Positions 7,873 through 30,789 of a DNA stretch of 32,023 nt are shown here, in pieces. The stretch is from an uncultured Rubritalea sp. (lineage in GTDB: Bacteria > Verrucomicrobiota > Verrucomicrobiia > Verrucomicrobiales > Akkermansiaceae), in assembly GCA_937981665.1 (NCBI GenBank), contig CALJOJ010000052.1:1-32023 (forward strand), in the 5' to 3' direction. The notes beneath the pieces are model-generated. The model was not told the origin of the DNA, ran no database searches, and saw only the letters and a program-made list of their open reading frames with translations. How positions within the stretch are numbered: the stretch's first letter is position 1; each line of letters opens with the position of its first letter. The position numbers and the translations under genes were made by a program.

Positions 7873-8373
7873 TTATTTCAGCTCTAAGAGCTCAACCGCA
7901 ATAATTAACTTACCTCCACGCCATGCTGGCCCCTGAACATAAAGCGGCTTACCTTTCTTTAATGTCACACCGCTTTTCATGATCTTCTTCTGTGCCTGCC
8001 AGAGCTCTAGATCCACCTTAAGTGTCCCTCCCACAGGCTTTCCGCTAGGCTGAAAACTCACCAAAATCTGCTTAGAACCTTTTATTGGATTTGCCCAGTT
8101 TACATACCGTTTAAGAATAGACTGCGTGTCTTCACCCATCAGACGATAGTGAGCAAACTTAATTTCTTTAAGCTGAGCTCCACTGATTATTTTCAAGTTT
8201 TTACCCGCTACATCGGCATCTCCATCAGTACCGAAAATGAGGCTCACCTTGAGCTTACCGATAGCCTGTTTAGCTTCCACTCCTTGCGCAGATAGTGAGC
8301 ACACACCACAAAGCAGTGTAGCGATCATCAAGCCTAGCCAAGGCAACCTTCTCTGTTTAAAAATCGTCATCAT
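7873..8373 (-). CDS. Exported protein, third gene of the ECF sigma operon
   Basis: A 166-residue protein of unknown family. Residues 1-30 form a signal peptide (basic MMTIFKQRR, hydrophobic core, likely cleavage near SLSAQG). The mature part is beta-rich, with regular alternation such as LKVSLIFGTDGDAD and GTLKVDLELWQ, and ends in KLIIAVELLELK. The ATG at 8373 directly abuts the stop codon of the anti-sigma-like gene with no gap, so translational coupling is likely. Its place makes it a candidate envelope sensor or effector tied to the sigma factor; this is inference from position only. Confidence 0.75.
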   Translation of the reverse strand: MMTIFKQRRLPWLGLMIATLLCGVCSLSAQGVEAKQAIGKLKVSLIFGTDGDADVAGKNLKIISGAQLKEIKFAHYRLMGEDTQSILKRYVNWANPIKGSKQILVSFQPSGKPVGGTLKVDLELWQAQKKIMKSGVTLKKGKPLYVQGPAWRGGKLIIAVELLELK

Positions 8374-9887: not shown

Positions 9888-10589
9888 TTACTGACCGAGT
9901 GCACCTGCTGCTGCACCCTTAGCTTTTTCTAATGCGCCTGCTGCTGCACCTTTAGCTGCGTCAACTGCACCTGCTGCTGCGTCTGTTGCTGCTCCTTTAG
10001 CTTTCTCCACCATTCCTGTTGCTGCACCAGTATCCTTCTGAGTCTTCAAAGTAAATCTTGCTTTCTCCACCATTCCTGTTGCTGCACCTTTAACTGAATC
10101 CATGGCTCCTGTTGCTGCGTCTGTTGCTGATTCCGCTGCTCCTGCTGCTGCGTCTGTTGCTGAATCAACTGCTCCTGTTGCTGCGTCTGTTGCTGCGTCT
10201 GTTGCTGCGTCTGTTGCTGATTCCGCTGCTCCTGCTGCTGCGTCTGTTGCTGAATCCATTGCACCTGATGCTGCGTCTGTTGCTGAATCCATTGCACCTG
10301 ATGCTGCGTCTGTTGCGCCTGAAGCTGCACCTGTTACTGATTCTACTGCACTAGATGCCTTTTCTGAAACAGTATCCTTGACTGAATCCATTACTCCTGT
10401 TGCCGCTTCTTTAGCTGAATCTAAAGCTCCTGCTCCTGCTTCTTTAGCCGAATCCAACGCTCCTGCTGCTGCTTCTTTAGCTGATTCCTTAGCTGAATCC
10501 ATTGCTCCTGCTGCTGCCTCTTTAGCTTCTTTACATGAAGTAAAAGATGCAGCCACACCCGCTATGATAAGTATATTTTTAAGTTTCAT
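9888..10589 (-). CDS. Alanine-rich 11-residue-repeat lipoprotein
   Basis: A 233-residue protein. The signal segment MKLKNILIIAGVAASFTSC ends in a probable lipidation cysteine, C19, with a slightly unusual F at -3. Almost all of the rest is an imperfect 11-residue repeat of the form GAxDSAxDAA or SAKEAAAGA, composed of A, D/E, K, S, T and G. This is the pattern of amphipathic helices in LEA-like and YtxH-like proteins. There are no cysteines or aromatics in the repeats apart from one F in an aberrant insert. I infer an elongated periplasmic helix, perhaps a spacer or desiccation/stress protein. DNA repeats inside the gene are listed separately. Confidence 0.8.
   Translation of the reverse strand: MKLKNILIIAGVAASFTSCKEAKEAAAGAMDSAKESAKEAAAGALDSAKEAGAGALDSAKEAATGVMDSVKDTVSEKASSAVESVTGAASGATDAASGAMDSATDAASGAMDSATDAAAGAAESATDAATDAATDAATGAVDSATDAAAGAAESATDAATGAMDSVKGAATGMVEKARFTLKTQKDTGAATGMVEKAKGAATDAAAGAVDAAKGAAAGALEKAKGAAAGALGQ
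10001..10088. repeat. Two 28-bp direct repeats, 60 bp apart, around a non-repeat insert
   Basis: The same 28 bases occur at 10001-10028 and 10061-10088, inside the Ala-rich gene. The 32 bases between encode residues RFTLKTQKDT, which do not fit the 11-residue repeat. Confidence 0.9.
10249..10314. repeat. Perfect 33-bp tandem duplication in the Ala-rich gene
   Basis: Positions 10249-10281 and 10282-10314 are identical, encoding two successive 11-residue units. Flanking units from about 10100 to 10540 are diverged versions of the same 33-bp period. Unequal recombination or slippage should make the copy number variable. Confidence 0.9.
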
Positions 10590-17399: not shown

Positions 17400-18941
17400 A
17401 TGAAAACACTCATCACTTTAACTCTTTATAGTATTATTTCCTCTTCCTTTATTAAGGCGAAAGAGAATCATCATCCTAATATCATCCTCATCTTTGCTGA
17501 TGACTTAGGAATGGGAATGCTCAGCCACTATGGGCAAACGCACCTCACCACACCGAACATTGACTCCATTGCCAAAGAAGGCATCAGCTTCAAGCGGTTC
17601 TATGGTAGCACCTTCTGCGCTCCTTCTAGATACACACTTCTAACGGGAATGCATGATGGCCACCAAGGCGCAGGCTCACACACACCAGGGTCATTTATTA
17701 AAAAGCTCGATAAAACTACCCAAGATCCAGATCAATGGGAAGCGGTATACAACAAACACCTCGACGAGCGTAAAAAAAGGATCGTCATCCCAGACAGCGA
17801 GCTGTTCCTAGCTCAAGTCGCGAAAAAAGCCGGCTACACCACCGCCCAGTTTGGTAAGCTAGACATAGGCTTCCTCACATGGCATGACCGTATCAAGCGC
17901 CTAGGATGGGACCATTATGTAGGTTATTATGATCACGCTAGAGCACACGGGTTCTACCCTCGTTATCTCTGGAAAAATGGAGAAAAACTCCCACTTAAAG
18001 GCAATACAAAATGGGATGCTGGTAAAGCTAGTGAAAATGGTAACGAACCCGTGGGAAGTCATGGAGAGACCTACTCACAAGACATCTTTATTTCAGAAAT
18101 TCTAGACTTCATCCGCACCCACAAAGAAAAACCCTTTTTCATCTATCATTCTACTCAGCTGCCACACGGACCAGTGGCAGTGAATAAGTTACACCCTGAA
18201 GTCGCTGATAATCCAGACCTAACCCTTTCTGAAAAGAAATACGCGAGTATGGTAAAAATGTTAGATGAGCATGTGGGACTCATTCTAAAAGAACTCAAAG
18301 ACCAAGGAATAGAGGATAATACCATCGTCATGTTTACCTCTGATAACGGTCACGAAACATACTACGAAAACAAAAAGAAAAAGCTTCCTAAGAAAAATAA
18401 AAAACTACTAACAGATCACTCTAAGTCTAATATGACTAATAACAAATGGCGCACCAGTAATGGCGGCGATATTTTCAACGGTGCAGCTGGTATGGCAGGT
18501 CTAAAATGGGATACCCTAGAAGGTGGTATCCATTGCCCAATGTTTATCAAATGGCCGGCTAAAATCAAACCTAACAGTAACTCTGAACACTTAGCCACTC
18601 ATTACGATTTCATGGCAACTCTCGCTGACCTTACAGGGCAGTCTATACCCAAAGAAAAAAACAGCTTATCCTACCTCCCTACATTGACAGGGGCTAAGGA
18701 ACAACCTACGCATGACTGGATCTTCGTAAACTTCGGTAGAGCAACGAAAGGAACCGTCATCACAAAGGACCACTGGAAACTAATCCAATTAAAGAATGGA
18801 AGTTTCCAACTCTATAGCCTCAAGGATGACTTCAAAGAGGAAGTCAACGTCGAAAAGCAACACCCTGAAATAGTCAAGAAACTCAAAAGTATCTTCCTCA
18901 AAGAACAAGGGAAGCTACGTCCTGACACCGCTACAAAATAA
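17400..18941 (+). CDS. Secreted formylglycine-dependent sulfatase (S1 family)
   Basis: A 513-residue exported sulfatase; the signal peptide is MKTLITLTLYSIISSSFIKA. PNIILIFADDLG carries the calcium-binding D34-D35. C73-A-P-S-R77 is the CxPSR signature whose cysteine is converted to formylglycine, and LLTG follows. Later landmarks are FGKLDIGF, FFIYHSTQLPHGP, MFTSDNGHE (metal site) and WDTLEGGIHCPMFIKWP. The family hydrolyses sulfate esters of polysaccharides or small molecules; arylsulfatase-like enzymes in marine PVC bacteria usually act on algal glycans. No maturase gene (anSME or FGE) is in the window. It follows the lipase gene by 52 bp on the same strand. Confidence 0.93.
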   Translation: MKTLITLTLYSIISSSFIKAKENHHPNIILIFADDLGMGMLSHYGQTHLTTPNIDSIAKEGISFKRFYGSTFCAPSRYTLLTGMHDGHQGAGSHTPGSFIKKLDKTTQDPDQWEAVYNKHLDERKKRIVIPDSELFLAQVAKKAGYTTAQFGKLDIGFLTWHDRIKRLGWDHYVGYYDHARAHGFYPRYLWKNGEKLPLKGNTKWDAGKASENGNEPVGSHGETYSQDIFISEILDFIRTHKEKPFFIYHSTQLPHGPVAVNKLHPEVADNPDLTLSEKKYASMVKMLDEHVGLILKELKDQGIEDNTIVMFTSDNGHETYYENKKKKLPKKNKKLLTDHSKSNMTNNKWRTSNGGDIFNGAAGMAGLKWDTLEGGIHCPMFIKWPAKIKPNSNSEHLATHYDFMATLADLTGQSIPKEKNSLSYLPTLTGAKEQPTHDWIFVNFGRATKGTVITKDHWKLIQLKNGSFQLYSLKDDFKEEVNVEKQHPEIVKKLKSIFLKEQGKLRPDTATK

Positions 18942-26064: not shown

Positions 26065-28053
26065 ATGAACAAAACTCTTTTAACATTACTCCTAGCCTCT
26101 AGCTCGGTTTCTCCACTTTTCGCTCAAAAGCCCCCAAGTCTATCTCCTGGTGGCTCTGCAAGTGGTGGCGGTAACGATACTATCGTAAGACGAGACAGCC
26201 AGCCAGACGCTTCTGCTCACGGGACTGACATCCCAATCATCGATCCTACTAATAAAACCGTCGAAGTCCAAGGTAGACAATACAGCCTTATGGACAATCA
26301 TCTAGGTGGCCAATTCGAGGCATTCTTGGCTACTGATACACTCTCATCCGAGGAAGCAGTCACTTACCGTAAGGTCTTAAGAGAAATTCTTGATACAGTC
26401 TCACCAACGAGAAGTGGCGGACCTAACCTTGGCAAAGCATACAAATTGTTAGAAGTTGCATCAGCATACCCAGGTGACGGAAACCTTTGCGAGTCACTAG
26501 CTAACGCAATCTACTCAGCGCAGCTTACTAAAAACAATATTGGCTCTAAACAAGAGTTTATCGCCAAGCTTCGCCGTGAGGAAAAGACCCTCGTTCGTAA
26601 CATGAGAGTGATCGAACAAAAATCTGAATTTAGCACAGCTGGTGGTGGAAATGGTGGTAGTAAGAGCAGTAACACTGGATCTTCTAAAAGCGGAGCAAGA
26701 ACATCAAGCTCCTCAGGACGTACAGGAAACATCGACTACCAGGTTATGCAAAAGCGCCTCGTAGAGATCACTGCTATCATCAAAAAAACTGAAGTTGAAG
26801 GCACTATTGACCTCACTCAATCAAAAATTCAATACCAAGCAATGATGGTACAGCTATTCATGCAACGTAGATTTGAACACGTCATTATGTCTGCCAGATT
26901 TTACAACCTCATCTATCAAGATGGTGATGTGAAAATGCGCCTAAAGCGTGGTTCTGACACAGAAAAGTTCTTCTCGGAAGGAATAGGTGTTGACCCTACA
27001 GTAGCCGGACTAGATGCAGCTGCTAATGAAGCTATCCGTAAGGTAAAGACGCTAGTTAGTGCCTTTGAAAATAATATCCAAAGTGATCGACTTCACGCTG
27101 CATCAGAGAGACTCGTTGAGTCATTCGCCATCGGTGAATTCGTCACCACAGTTCAGACTATTCCTGCCGAGAGCAAGCTTAAGGTCCTTAAATATGTCCA
27201 AGACGCAAATGACCTCGTAAAAACACTTCAAGCAAAAGATCTGGAGCGCGGTGAAGAACTCAATAGCCGTCTCAGTGAAAGCGCTAGCGACTACAATGCA
27301 TCAGAAGCTCGGTCATACATCGCAGCTAAAAAGACAGAGTCCGAAAGCTACGCAAGAGACGCTAAACTAGCACTCTTCCAAATGAAAAGAGTAACAGATA
27401 CCCAAGAAAGATATAACGAAGAACAACGCTTTAAAACAGCAATGTTTAAAGCTACCTCAGCTTGGCCATCAAACCCAGATCTCAATGAAATCAATGGAAT
27501 GCTAGATGACATCATTGGTAGAGGTCTAGAAGCTGAAGACATGCTGCTCTCAGCCCGTAAAGACTTTGACCGCTATGTAGACACTCAGTCATGGGCTGCG
27601 ATCACTAACGAAGAAAACCTACCACGTTTCCTCGCAGCATTTGGTGTCTCCAAAGAAGAAGAAGACCTTGAGCGCAACAGCATGCTCAAGAAGATCACTG
27701 GCAATAAGACATCAGTCATCGAAGCACTCAGAAAGGCGGAGTCACTAGACCAGAATGGACAGGCAGCAGCAGCATGGGAAACGATCGATATGAAACTCAA
27801 GGAATTTGATGATGATATCGAACTCTCTAAAGCCAGCGCAATCTATAGTGGAAGAGCTGCTGAGTTCACTCAGATCATCTCCAAAGCTAAACAATATGAG
27901 AAGAAATCATCATCTTCAGCCCAAGCACTCACTTGGTACCTGAAAGCTCAAAACATTCACCCAAAGAGTGATTATGCAGCGAATGGCATTGAGCGTATTC
28001 TTCTGAATAAATTTGGAACTAGCGCAGATAAGATTAAGTCTACTGACAATTAA
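26065..28053 (+). CDS. Large helical secreted protein of unknown function
   Basis: A 662-residue exported protein; the signal peptide is MNKTLLTLLLASSSVSPLFA. A Ser/Gly-rich stretch follows cleavage, then VEVQGRQYSLMDNHLGGQFEAFLA, then long charged helices to the end. A second Gly/Ser linker at about 194-223 splits a shorter N-terminal from a long C-terminal helical region. The last ~80 residues (AEFTQIISKAKQYEKKSSSSAQALTW, then PKSDYAANGIERIL) look like a tetratricopeptide-type helix pair. No enzyme motif is visible. It could be a scaffold or periplasmic adaptor. I do not recognise a named family. Confidence 0.75.
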   Translation: MNKTLLTLLLASSSVSPLFAQKPPSLSPGGSASGGGNDTIVRRDSQPDASAHGTDIPIIDPTNKTVEVQGRQYSLMDNHLGGQFEAFLATDTLSSEEAVTYRKVLREILDTVSPTRSGGPNLGKAYKLLEVASAYPGDGNLCESLANAIYSAQLTKNNIGSKQEFIAKLRREEKTLVRNMRVIEQKSEFSTAGGGNGGSKSSNTGSSKSGARTSSSSGRTGNIDYQVMQKRLVEITAIIKKTEVEGTIDLTQSKIQYQAMMVQLFMQRRFEHVIMSARFYNLIYQDGDVKMRLKRGSDTEKFFSEGIGVDPTVAGLDAAANEAIRKVKTLVSAFENNIQSDRLHAASERLVESFAIGEFVTTVQTIPAESKLKVLKYVQDANDLVKTLQAKDLERGEELNSRLSESASDYNASEARSYIAAKKTESESYARDAKLALFQMKRVTDTQERYNEEQRFKTAMFKATSAWPSNPDLNEINGMLDDIIGRGLEAEDMLLSARKDFDRYVDTQSWAAITNEENLPRFLAAFGVSKEEEDLERNSMLKKITGNKTSVIEALRKAESLDQNGQAAAAWETIDMKLKEFDDDIELSKASAIYSGRAAEFTQIISKAKQYEKKSSSSAQALTWYLKAQNIHPKSDYAANGIERILLNKFGTSADKIKSTDN

Positions 28054-28137
28054 GCAGAGCGCGCTATCGCAGAATAACCCATCTCCATAAACAAACATTA
28101 AACCCACTCACCTAACAGTGCAGCTGGCTTTTTTGTA

Positions 28138-28327
28138 TCTTGGATTCTACGAGTAAGCGCAACACTATTTTTAGGTGGGGAAAGCTAGTTAACCGCAAGC
28201 CTTTTTGTGTAGTCGTAATCCTTTGCCATTATAAATGAAAGGATTACGACTACACAAAAAGGCTGTTATTCTCATAAGTCATTGATATGATCGGATTTAA
28301 ATTGTTGCACTTCGGGCTTGATAGTAG
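28138..28327. mobile_element. MITE-like hairpin repeat, copy 1
   Basis: About 190 bp shared with 29948-30136 in the same orientation, roughly 15 differences by eye. The centre is a perfect 27-bp inverted repeat (28198-28224 with 28238-28264) around a 13-nt loop; the arms begin AGCCTTTTTGTGTAGTCG. The outer ends carry an imperfect inverted repeat from CTAC at 28147 to GTAG at 28327. It encodes no protein. The structure suits a non-autonomous mobile element or a large structured RNA; which one cannot be told here. Confidence 0.75.
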
Positions 28328-28339
28328 TATATTGTAATT

Positions 28340-29904
28340 ATGTCACCAGCCTATTCTAAAAAGAATCAACTTCCACATATAAAAAAACATTAACACTAAT
28401 CTCTACCTTTTTAACCAGTATCAGCTTACCGTTATCAGGTTCTACACAACAGCCCAATGTCATTTTAATCTACGCTGACGATCTGGGTTATGGTGACTTG
28501 AGCTGTTATGGTGCTACTATGCTACAGACTCCGAACATCGATAAGCTAGCTACTGAGGGGAAAATATTTACAGATGCACACTCGCCATCAGCAGTCTGCA
28601 CTCCATCCCGTTATGGTCTCCTTACAGGAGAATACCCATATAGGAAAGGTCTCTGGGGGCCGTGCGGGCACACCCAGCCGCTATTGATTGACACAGGCAA
28701 GCTAACCCTGAGTCAGTTATTTAAGAACAAAGGCTATGCTACTGCAGCTATAGGTAAGTGGCATCTAGGCTTCGGTACTGATAAAACCGATTGGAATAAA
28801 CCGCTACGACCTGGCCCACTCGAACTAGGCTTCGACTATTACTTTGGTGTCCCAAAGGTAAACAGTGGCTATCCATATGTATATGTAGAGAATGACCGCG
28901 TCCTGGGATGGGAAGCTAATGACCCTTTAACTACTAAAAAGCCTTACGGGATAACAACAACCTACCCAGCAGATCATGGTAAAAAGACAGCTAATAAATT
29001 TGGGGGAGGAAAGAAAGCGCATGCCATGTATGACGATGAGCGCACAGGTACTTTACTCGCTGAAAAGAGTGTCAAATGGATCACTGAAAACAAAGAAAAA
29101 CCGTTCTTTCTCTATTTACCAACCACTAACATTCACCACCCATTCACCCCTGCCCCTCGCTTCAAGGGTACTAGTCAATGTGGACTATATGGTGATTTCA
29201 TTCATGAGTTAGACTGGATGGTCGGCGAAGTAATGAAGTGCTTAGATGACAACGGAATCACTGACAACACACTCGTCATCTTTACCAGTGACAATGGTGG
29301 TATGTTTAACAATGTAGCAAAAGATGCTTTCGATAAAGGGCATCATCAAAACGGCGAACTGCTTGGGTTTAAATTTGGAGTCTGGGAAGGCGGACACCGT
29401 GTTCCTTTTATTGCAAAGTGGTCGGGGAAGATCAAACCTGGAAGCAAATCCTCTCAGCTAATCAGCGGCATAGATATGCTAGCAACATTTGCAGCCCTTA
29501 CAGAGCAGTCCATTAATGAAAAGCAACTAGCTGATAGCATCAATATCTTACCTGCTATCATAGGTGATCCTACAAAGGCTCTGCGTGAAACATTAGTTCT
29601 ATGTCCTAGCAAAAAAAGCCACTTAGCTCTTCGCAAAGGTAAATGGCTATATATAGGTGCTCAGGGAGCTGGCGGCTTCAATAAGTCACCAGATAAGCAC
29701 GGAGCAGGTGGACCAAAATGTGTCACCTATGTAGGAGATATCAACAGTGATATTAAAGACGGAAAAATCATTAAAGACGCACCTCCTGCACAACTCTATG
29801 ATCTTCAAGCCGATCTCAAGCAGACAACAAACTTACATGATCAACACCCTGAAATCGTCGAGCAAATGAAGCGTCTTCTTAATGAATATAAACTTAAAAA
29901 ATAA
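28340..29904 (+). CDS. Second sulfatase (S1 family), 5' end disrupted
   Basis: The main frame (no stops 28360-29904) encodes a sulfatase: PNVILIYADDLGYGD (calcium-site Asp pair), C-T-P-S-R with the formylglycine cysteine codon at 28597-28599, GKWHLGFG, TTNIHHPF, FTSDNGG and WEGGHRVPFIAKW. Upstream it reads a good signal peptide (KKTLTLISTFLTSISLPLSG), but this frame has no ATG, GTG or TTG until the TTG at 28498, which lies after the essential Asp pair. An ATG at 28340 opens another frame that runs 13 codons into an A7 tract (28381-28387) and soon stops; one extra A there would join it to the sulfatase frame. It is therefore either a fresh pseudogene, a slippage- or phase-regulated gene, or a sequencing error. 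Confidence 0.75.
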
Positions 29905-29936
29905 AAGCCTACTCAGAGGTCATCCAAGTAGGCTTT
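29904..29936 (+). terminator. Probable terminator after the second sulfatase
   Basis: AAAGCCTACT (29904-29913) pairs perfectly with AGTAGGCTTT (29927-29936) over a 13-nt loop, immediately at the stop codon. The T run is only three, so its efficiency is uncertain. Confidence 0.7.
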
Positions 29937-29947
29937 ATAACAAAAAT

Positions 29948-30136
29948 TCTTGGATTCTAGGAGTAAGTACAATACTATTTTTAGGTGAGGAAGCTAGTTA
30001 ACCGCAAGCCTTTTTGTGTAGTCTTAATCCTTCGCCATTATACATGAAAGGATTACGACTACACAAAAAGGCTATTATTATCATAAGTCATTGATATAAA
30101 CGTATTTAAAGTGTTGCACTTCGGGCTTGATAGTAG
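29948..30136. mobile_element. MITE-like hairpin repeat, copy 2
   Basis: Direct copy of 28138-28327. The inverted repeat here is 30007-30033 with 30047-30073, with two mismatches in the left arm, so this copy has drifted from the perfect hairpin of copy 1. It ends 24 bp from the stop of the peroxiredoxin remnant. Together the two copies bracket the second sulfatase. Confidence 0.75.
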
Positions 30137-30160
30137 GATTTAAAATTCTAAATAGATAGA

Positions 30161-30370
30161 TTACTTTGAAAGGAATGCACTAACACCTGCATGGTCTGCA
30201 GTCATTGCGGCTGAACCCTTTTCCCAGTCCATTAGTCACACTTCACCGTGTTCTTCAAAGTGCTGAAGAGTATCGATCACACAGAGATACTCGCGAATAG
30301 GGCGACCCAGTGGCATGTCGTTTACCACTTGGTGACGAACCTTACCTTCAAGGTCGATAAGGAAGAGTCT
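30161..30370 (-). pseudogene. 3' remnant of a 2-Cys peroxiredoxin (AhpC/Prx1 type)
   Basis: About 70 codons. The minus strand reads RLFLIDLEGKVRHQVVND, then MPLGRPIREYL, then QHFEEHGEV. This is the C-terminal part of a typical 2-Cys peroxiredoxin, in which HGEV is normally followed by the resolving cysteine. Here the next codon is TGA (30236-30238), and the same frame continues as LMDWEKGSAAMTADHAGVS to a TAA at 30161. The catalytic thioredoxin-fold part with the peroxidatic cysteine is missing; upstream the sequence switches to the end of the neighbouring lipoprotein gene. This is truncation plus a nonsense change, so a dead fragment. Confidence 0.8.
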
Positions 30371-30371
30371 C

Positions 30372-30695
30372 TTATGGGACTACAAATATATGACTAGGGT
30401 CTGGATCCTCTGGATCTCTCACTTTCATGCCTGATCTCAGGCCTGCTACTTCTACCATGTTTTGATTAAAAGGGTTAAACACAAAACCTGGGCGGCCGGC
30501 TACTGGAGTAGCCAGCGGGATAGCTGAGTTTACAGGGATGGAGGTCTCATCAATGCTCACCAAATCATCAATACGCTGCTCGACGAAAGTTTCATTGATA
30601 ACAGCCTCTCTCTCTGGAACATCTGGAGTAGATCCACATGAGCTTAATAAACAGCCTGATAAAATAGTGATGGGAATGATTAAAAGAATTTTCAT
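30372..30695 (-). CDS. Small lipoprotein of unknown function
   Basis: 107 residues from the ATG at 30695, preferred over the ATG at 30752 because it begins a clean signal peptide MKILLIIPITILSGCLLSSC with two possible lipid cysteines (C15, C20). The mature part is short, acidic and proline-rich and ends VRDPEDPDPSHIFVVP. No family is recognised. Its stop codon overlaps the first bases of the peroxiredoxin remnant, so the downstream junction is a rearrangement point, but the protein itself looks complete. Confidence 0.6.
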   Translation of the reverse strand: MKILLIIPITILSGCLLSSCGSTPDVPEREAVINETFVEQRIDDLVSIDETSIPVNSAIPLATPVAGRPGFVFNPFNQNMVEVAGLRSGMKVRDPEDPDPSHIFVVP

Positions 30696-30789
30696 ACTTA
30701 CAGTCAAAGTCTTATACATTCCTCTCTTATTCAGCAACCCTAAATAATCCAATATTGATAGTTAATCATAGTGAGCGTATAGTATAAAC

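Follow-up and report, generated by a model that had tools for sequence, protein, structure and literature searches.

The non-coding repeat of about 190 bp that brackets a sulfatase gene in an uncultured Rubritalea sp. probably represents a small and old family of non-autonomous, MITE-like elements, whose two copies at this locus would be independent insertions, the sulfatase not being their cargo. The locus is found in a stretch of 32,023 nucleotides, hereafter the window, which corresponds to contig C52 of an assembly of 2.7 Mb in 107 contigs, 93% complete. The repeat pair is organised as follows, the sequences of the subterminal inverted repeats being those of a further full copy, on contig C54.

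28139 to 28328, plus strand: left copy of the repeat, starting with CTTGGATTCTA and ending with GATAGTAG(T), the last base being uncertain
28155 to 28166, no strand assigned: left subterminal inverted repeat of the left copy (AAGTGCAACACT in C54; its place in the left copy is read from the alignment)
28198 to 28264, no strand assigned: central hairpin of the left copy, with perfect arms of 27 bp (28198 to 28224 and 28238 to 28264) and a loop of 13 nt
28301 to 28312, no strand assigned: right subterminal inverted repeat of the left copy (AGTGTTGCACTT in C54)
29949 to 30137, plus strand: right copy of the repeat, in the same orientation as the left one and ending with GATAGTAGG, the last base being uncertain
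30007 to 30073, no strand assigned: central hairpin of the right copy, with arms of 26 bp (30007 to 30032 and 30048 to 30073) that are 96% complementary and 15 nt between them

The two copies, whose boundaries were set by alignment with the other copies, are identical at 174 of 189 positions (92.1%, with one gap), very close to the 92% over two direct units of about 190 bp that the initial annotation had estimated by eye. In a repeat scan they appear as two ungapped direct repeats, D1 (162 nt at 90%) and D2 (45 nt at 89%). The repeat measures 188-190 bp, no open reading frame of at least 80 aa overlaps either copy, and the copies have G+C contents of 38% (left) and 35% (right), versus 45% for the window. 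The same annotation had described a non-coding element with an inverted-repeat core of 27 bp, and the measured arms, 27 nt at 100% in the left copy and 26 nt at 96% in the right one, agree with that description; so do the two spacings of 12 bp that it had reported, from the GTAG end of the left copy to an ATG at 28340 and from a terminator hairpin to the right copy. The folding of the left copy is far more stable than that of its shuffled versions (z -7.1 as RNA and -8.7 as DNA, with 0 of 200 shuffles as good) and, if transcribed, each copy would place a hairpin of 26-27 bp in the RNA. An Rfam search of positions 27900-30400 with E up to 1 returned ten matches (nine microRNA precursors and one antisense RNA), all below the gathering scores; since a long perfect hairpin produces such microRNA-type matches, they are not read as homology.

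A search of the host genome with the 190-bp unit, a check proposed along with the initial annotation, revealed further copies. By blastn and models of the half elements, the genome holds three full copies (two in the window and one on C54) and three partial ones; those outside the window are the following.

Contig C54: full copy, 95% by blastn
Contig C70: left part of the repeat, 86% by blastn
Contig C3: right part of the repeat, 83% by blastn
Contig C55: right end of the repeat, 93% over 40 nt by blastn, weakly extended by the model to 87 nt (42.8 bits)

In this genome the left-half and right-half models recover the same set of copies as blastn, their remaining matches being hairpin arms read backwards and weak ones with E above 0.1. 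The left end is present in four of the six copies and reads CTTGGAT in all of them, while the right end, present in five, reads GAT(A/C)GTAG in every case. In other words, the ends (CTTGGATTCTAGGAG and CACTTCGGGCTTGATAGTAG) are constant and the flanks differ among copies, those of the three full copies being among the flanks compared. Identities among the full copies are star-like: the window copies are 92% identical to each other, and the left and right ones are 95% and 94% identical, respectively, to the copy on C54, which also carries the fewest private changes (three, against seven in the left and eight in the right copy). In the partial copy on C70 the hairpin loop is inverted between its arms (local score of 151 in the inverted and 123 in the normal orientation); long palindromes are prone to such loop inversion. 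The neighbouring DNA of this contig is itself unusual in composition: positions 1-1500 of locus L139 are poor in T (10-19% in 250-base windows), begin with 4.5 copies of a 91-bp tandem repeat and appear by eye to hold no convincing gene, and the T-poor DNA reaches near the partial repeat copy.

The marks of mobility are mixed. In the copy on C54, AAGTGCAACACT begins 17 nt inside the left end and has an inverted counterpart 16 nt inside the right one, an exact match of 12 out of 12 bases that none of 2000 shuffles equalled. In each window copy, the longest exact match between the two ends is only 6 nt, a value reached by 436 and 408 of 2000 shuffles for the left and the right copy, respectively. 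Ends of the Tn3 type were not noticed by eye, and an integron attC site was dropped on inspection, no pair of the motifs GTTRRRY and RYYYAAC that characterises attC being seen in the repeat. The candidate target duplications are of 3 bp (ATT) for the right copy and of 5 bp for the left copy, the latter only with shifted boundaries, and none was found for C54; random places give a match of at least 3 bp in 51% and of at least 5 bp in 6% of cases, so that none of these stands out from chance, and old copies may have lost such duplications. At the C3 and C70 sites, the genes beside the neighbours differ among congeners, and hence no conserved neighbourhood is available for an empty-site comparison. 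No transposase beside the repeat copies was noticed by eye in the lists of open reading frames. The initial annotation had also pointed to an autonomous transposase with the same ends as something to look for; none was found, the genome-wide search covering the Y1 family in an assembly that is 93% complete. This search gave six Y1 transposase matches and, within up to 1.5 kb on each side of the six loci, matches to the repeat of only 8-13 nt, a length expected by chance. Near one of these Y1 matches, at about 1815-2000 of locus L180, GACCCTTTCTTAGACT-like units are repeated.

Taken together, this anatomy is that of a MITE in several respects. As outlined in a review that also treats transcript effects and RNase III processing (PMC10969869), bacterial MITEs such as Correia/NEMIS, ERIC and MITEAba12 share with the present repeat a length below 500 bp, AT-richness, an intergenic position, the lack of genes, inverted-repeat ends, a strong hairpin and the occurrence of several copies per genome. 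Compared with that account, the inverted repeats are here subterminal and imperfect, only six copies were found, target duplications stand at the level of chance and no parent element is known.

The constant GTAG of the right end, seen in five of five copies, raises a different reading, namely a GTAG-tagged repeat of the REP type that depends for its movement on a REP-associated Y1 (HUH) transposase. Verrucomicrobia are reported to be among the carriers of GTAG repeats (PMC3733652), the six Y1 matches would provide candidate enzymes, and such repeats have in common with the present one a single GTAG end, a palindromic structure and an intergenic location. However, REPs are described in that source as stem-loops of 20-40 bp, against about 190 bp here, and their hairpin stands beside the tag, while here it is central. 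GTAG is flanked by a weak stem of 5 bp only, which 40 of 200 shuffles on the plus strand and 23 of 200 on the minus strand equal, and the Y1 loci, bearing nothing beyond the chance-length matches mentioned above, offer no associated enzyme. We therefore regard this origin as highly improbable.

Outside its own genome the repeat was not recovered. The initial annotation had recommended a search of related genomes, and a blastn search of 57 relatives, 11 of them congeners, gave a match in none; a search of 260 genomes of the family, of lower sensitivity, found only the genome of the window itself and none of the 259 others. As this family search scored at most three first-look candidates per genome and missed the partial copies of the window's own genome, it excludes near-complete copies only. 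With the half-element models, whose searches used stricter filters, matches with E up to 1 were obtained in 7 (left) and 21 (right) of 58 genomes, own genome included; the relatives contributed only weak ones (best E 0.049 for the left and 0.0024, in G014, for the right half), which cover the element in part and were taken as noise. Phage and plasmid collections contain no match to the repeat. A pattern scan with the right end gave one match among the genome contigs, in a Saprospiraceae contig, and none among viral contigs, in which the left end gave one; in both matches the rest of the element is absent by eye. These phage, plasmid and contig collections may omit the window's own record. Finally, in the literature listings consulted, no title or opening of an abstract names the repeat element.

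The question then is how the two copies came to bracket a gene. The features that surround them are listed here.

26065 to 28053, plus strand: conserved gene of 662 aa, here followed by the left copy and the sulfatase
28360 to 29904, plus strand: sulfatase open frame (PF00884, CTPSR motif), start codon not defined
28381 to 28387, plus strand: run of seven A, across which the frame of the ATG at 28340 is offset by one base from that of the sulfatase
29904 to 29936, minus strand: terminator hairpin, matching the terminator after the peroxiredoxin gene in the congener G006
30161 to 30379, minus strand: peroxiredoxin remnant, C-terminal part with an in-frame stop
30372 to 30752, minus strand: small gene with no Pfam match, lipoprotein-like by eye, whose relative in G006 is followed by an intact peroxiredoxin gene

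By sequence, the best solved relatives of the enzyme are sulfatases, with the N-acetylgalactosamine-6-O-sulfatase 6s20 at the top (E 1.6e-99); no NCBIfam cut-off was reached. The ATG at 28340, initially put forward as its start codon, is one base out of frame with the sulfatase across the seven A, and the sulfatase frame contains no ATG, GTG or TTG before 28498, a position inside the conserved domain. This offset may reflect a sequencing error, a true shift of frame or slippage at the A run. Among congeners, the proteins nearest to this sulfatase (59% and 60% identity) are encoded in G009 and G003, beside other sulfatase-like genes. Elsewhere in the window, a second sulfatase (17400-18941, PF00884, CAPSR motif) is 28.5% identical to the one at 28360, and an alanine-rich repetitive protein is encoded on the minus strand at 9888-10589, with frames of 80 and 170 aa open on the opposite strand.

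On the other side of the sulfatase, the truncated peroxiredoxin gene described beside the right copy is indeed a remnant: its last 72 residues are 81% identical to an intact relative (AhpC-TSA, PF00578), and the frame carries a stop. The hairpin between the two, initially attributed to the sulfatase gene, is present, but it scored as a terminator on the minus strand only, that is for transcripts coming from the peroxiredoxin side. In G006, an intact peroxiredoxin gene (PF00578) comes after the relative of the small gene at 30372, and then about 50 nt and a terminator (AAAAAGCCTACTTGG-loop-AGGTAGGCTTTTT), whereas on the minus strand of the window the peroxiredoxin remnant is followed by the right copy of the repeat and then by AAAGCCTACTTGG...AGTAGGCTTT, scored as a terminator. 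When the flanks of the right copy are joined, a stop codon, about 38 nt and the terminator follow one another, which resembles the 3' end of the peroxiredoxin gene of G006; moreover, the first arm of the terminator is the same in the two genomes at 13 of 13 bases. The terminators displayed from the genus share AAAGCC-type stems, which weighs against this match, and the 3' end with terminator and no element comes from one genome of diverged sequence: of 33 loci searched, from congeners and from the present genome, only two overlapping ones of G006 and that of the window turned out to contain a peroxiredoxin. In view of the gene order in this single congener, the right copy appears to have inserted between the peroxiredoxin gene and its own terminator. 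The sulfatase, in turn, extends to this terminator from the other side.

The gene order on the left side suggests that the spot has been rearranged. Relatives of the gene at 26065 exist in 11 congeners, and in all four whose neighbourhood was inspected (G001, G004, G006 and G009) the gene is followed by a convergent infC (IF3 domains). The present genome carries infC on contig C7; the genes located beyond the peroxiredoxin in G006, one of them small and the other encoding a squalene/phytoene synthase, have their relatives on contig C14. Judged by gene order, then, the window locus is a synteny breakpoint, at which two regions that were once apart seem to have been joined. Neither the 15 kb of C7 surrounding infC nor the terminal 6.5 kb of C14 contains a significant match to the repeat, so nothing indicates that the repeats brought about the exchange. 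On C7 (locus L137), at the other side of the break and downstream of infC at 8254 on the minus strand, an IS66 Orf2-like piece was observed (PF05717, E 5.9e-5, 23.3 bits, below the cut-off of 26.6). The last 200 bases of C14 (locus L138), which we presumed by eye to be a group II intron end, were not supported as such, Rfam at gathering scores finding nothing; a small gene with stops lies beside this contig end.

Against this background, a composite transposon built from MITEs, as the initial annotation had it, can be weighed, i.e., a unit in which two direct copies mobilised a sulfatase cassette in the way Tn3-derived miniature elements do. A single gene does lie between two copies of the same orientation, the locus is a breakpoint, the closest congeneric sulfatases (59-60%) adjoin other sulfatase-like genes, and composite structures bounded by miniature elements have been published: in TIMEs and TIME-COMPs, as presented in PMC13367494, two direct short non-autonomous copies likewise flank a gene. 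What stood of the initial claim is the dispersed non-coding hairpin repeat with MITE-like anatomy; the pair carrying the sulfatase did not. Unlike in TIME-COMPs as described there, the copies are not sisters, the identity between them being lower than that of each to C54, and the pair seems not to have arisen by duplicating a single copy locally; a target duplication of the pair, which the annotation had wished to see, was not found, no match of at least 3 bp occurring within 3 bp of the outer ends, although an old unit could have lost it. Furthermore, the terminator that separates the sulfatase from the right copy matches that of the G006 peroxiredoxin, so that part of the supposed cargo looks native. 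A mobilised cassette is, on balance, unlikely.

A further possibility is that the repeat has been kept upstream of sulfatases as a regulatory element, its right end or its hairpin RNA controlling them. For three of the six copies (the left window copy, C54 and C55), the next downstream gene on the same strand encodes a sulfatase, at about 510 nt in C54, where the gap wholly contains no other open reading frame of at least 80 aa, at about 89 nt in C55, and within about 170 nt for the left copy, whose sulfatase start is undefined. The genome has 45 PF00884 matches, counted as about 43 genes, and the binomial probability of three or more such cases is 4e-5 to 1e-4 when only the downstream gene is considered and 3e-4 to 7e-4 when a sulfatase on either side counts, figures that are crude and post hoc, took five loci (the right copy being merged with the left) and assumed 2000-2800 genes; counting six copies about doubles the chance. 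By this estimate, the position of three copies upstream of three distantly related sulfatases is unlikely to be due to chance. The three proteins are only 26-35% identical to one another, which rules out a recent co-duplication of sulfatases with the repeat. Long spacers may also just be typical of sulfatase islands. In the left copy, TTGCAC stands by eye 17 nt before TATATT (28305 and 28328), but the remaining right ends have not conserved the second hexamer and the pair scores below the scan threshold; where 5.6 promoter-like sites were expected, the scan of 27900-30400 gave just one, which lies on the minus strand. Accordingly, no promoter shared by the three sulfatases was found in the comparison of right ends or in that scan. 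Moreover, for about 40 further sulfatases of this genome the blastn matches show no adjoining copy, and the C3, right window and C70 copies do not fit the pattern. A regulatory role is thus quite unlikely, and that the right end or the hairpin RNA is a shared control module wiring several unrelated sulfatases into one regulon of this species appears very unlikely.

The preferred reading remains that of an old MITE-like family with independent insertions. It would start from a non-autonomous, gene-less element of about 190 bp with imperfect ends, a 12-bp subterminal inverted repeat and a central 27-bp hairpin, which some transposase presumably moved in the past of the lineage. The copies then diverged, and three of the six are partial. 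At the present locus, a rearranged spot, one copy would have inserted after the T-run downstream of the gene at 26065 and another between the peroxiredoxin gene and its terminator.

These findings add a MITE-like family, unmatched in the collections searched, to a lineage rich in sulfatases. They also illustrate that a repeat on each side does not by itself make a gene a cassette, and that native sequence lying between the gene and a repeat can reveal the difference. If the bias towards sulfatases held in further genomes, it would represent a case of regulatory wiring by miniature elements.
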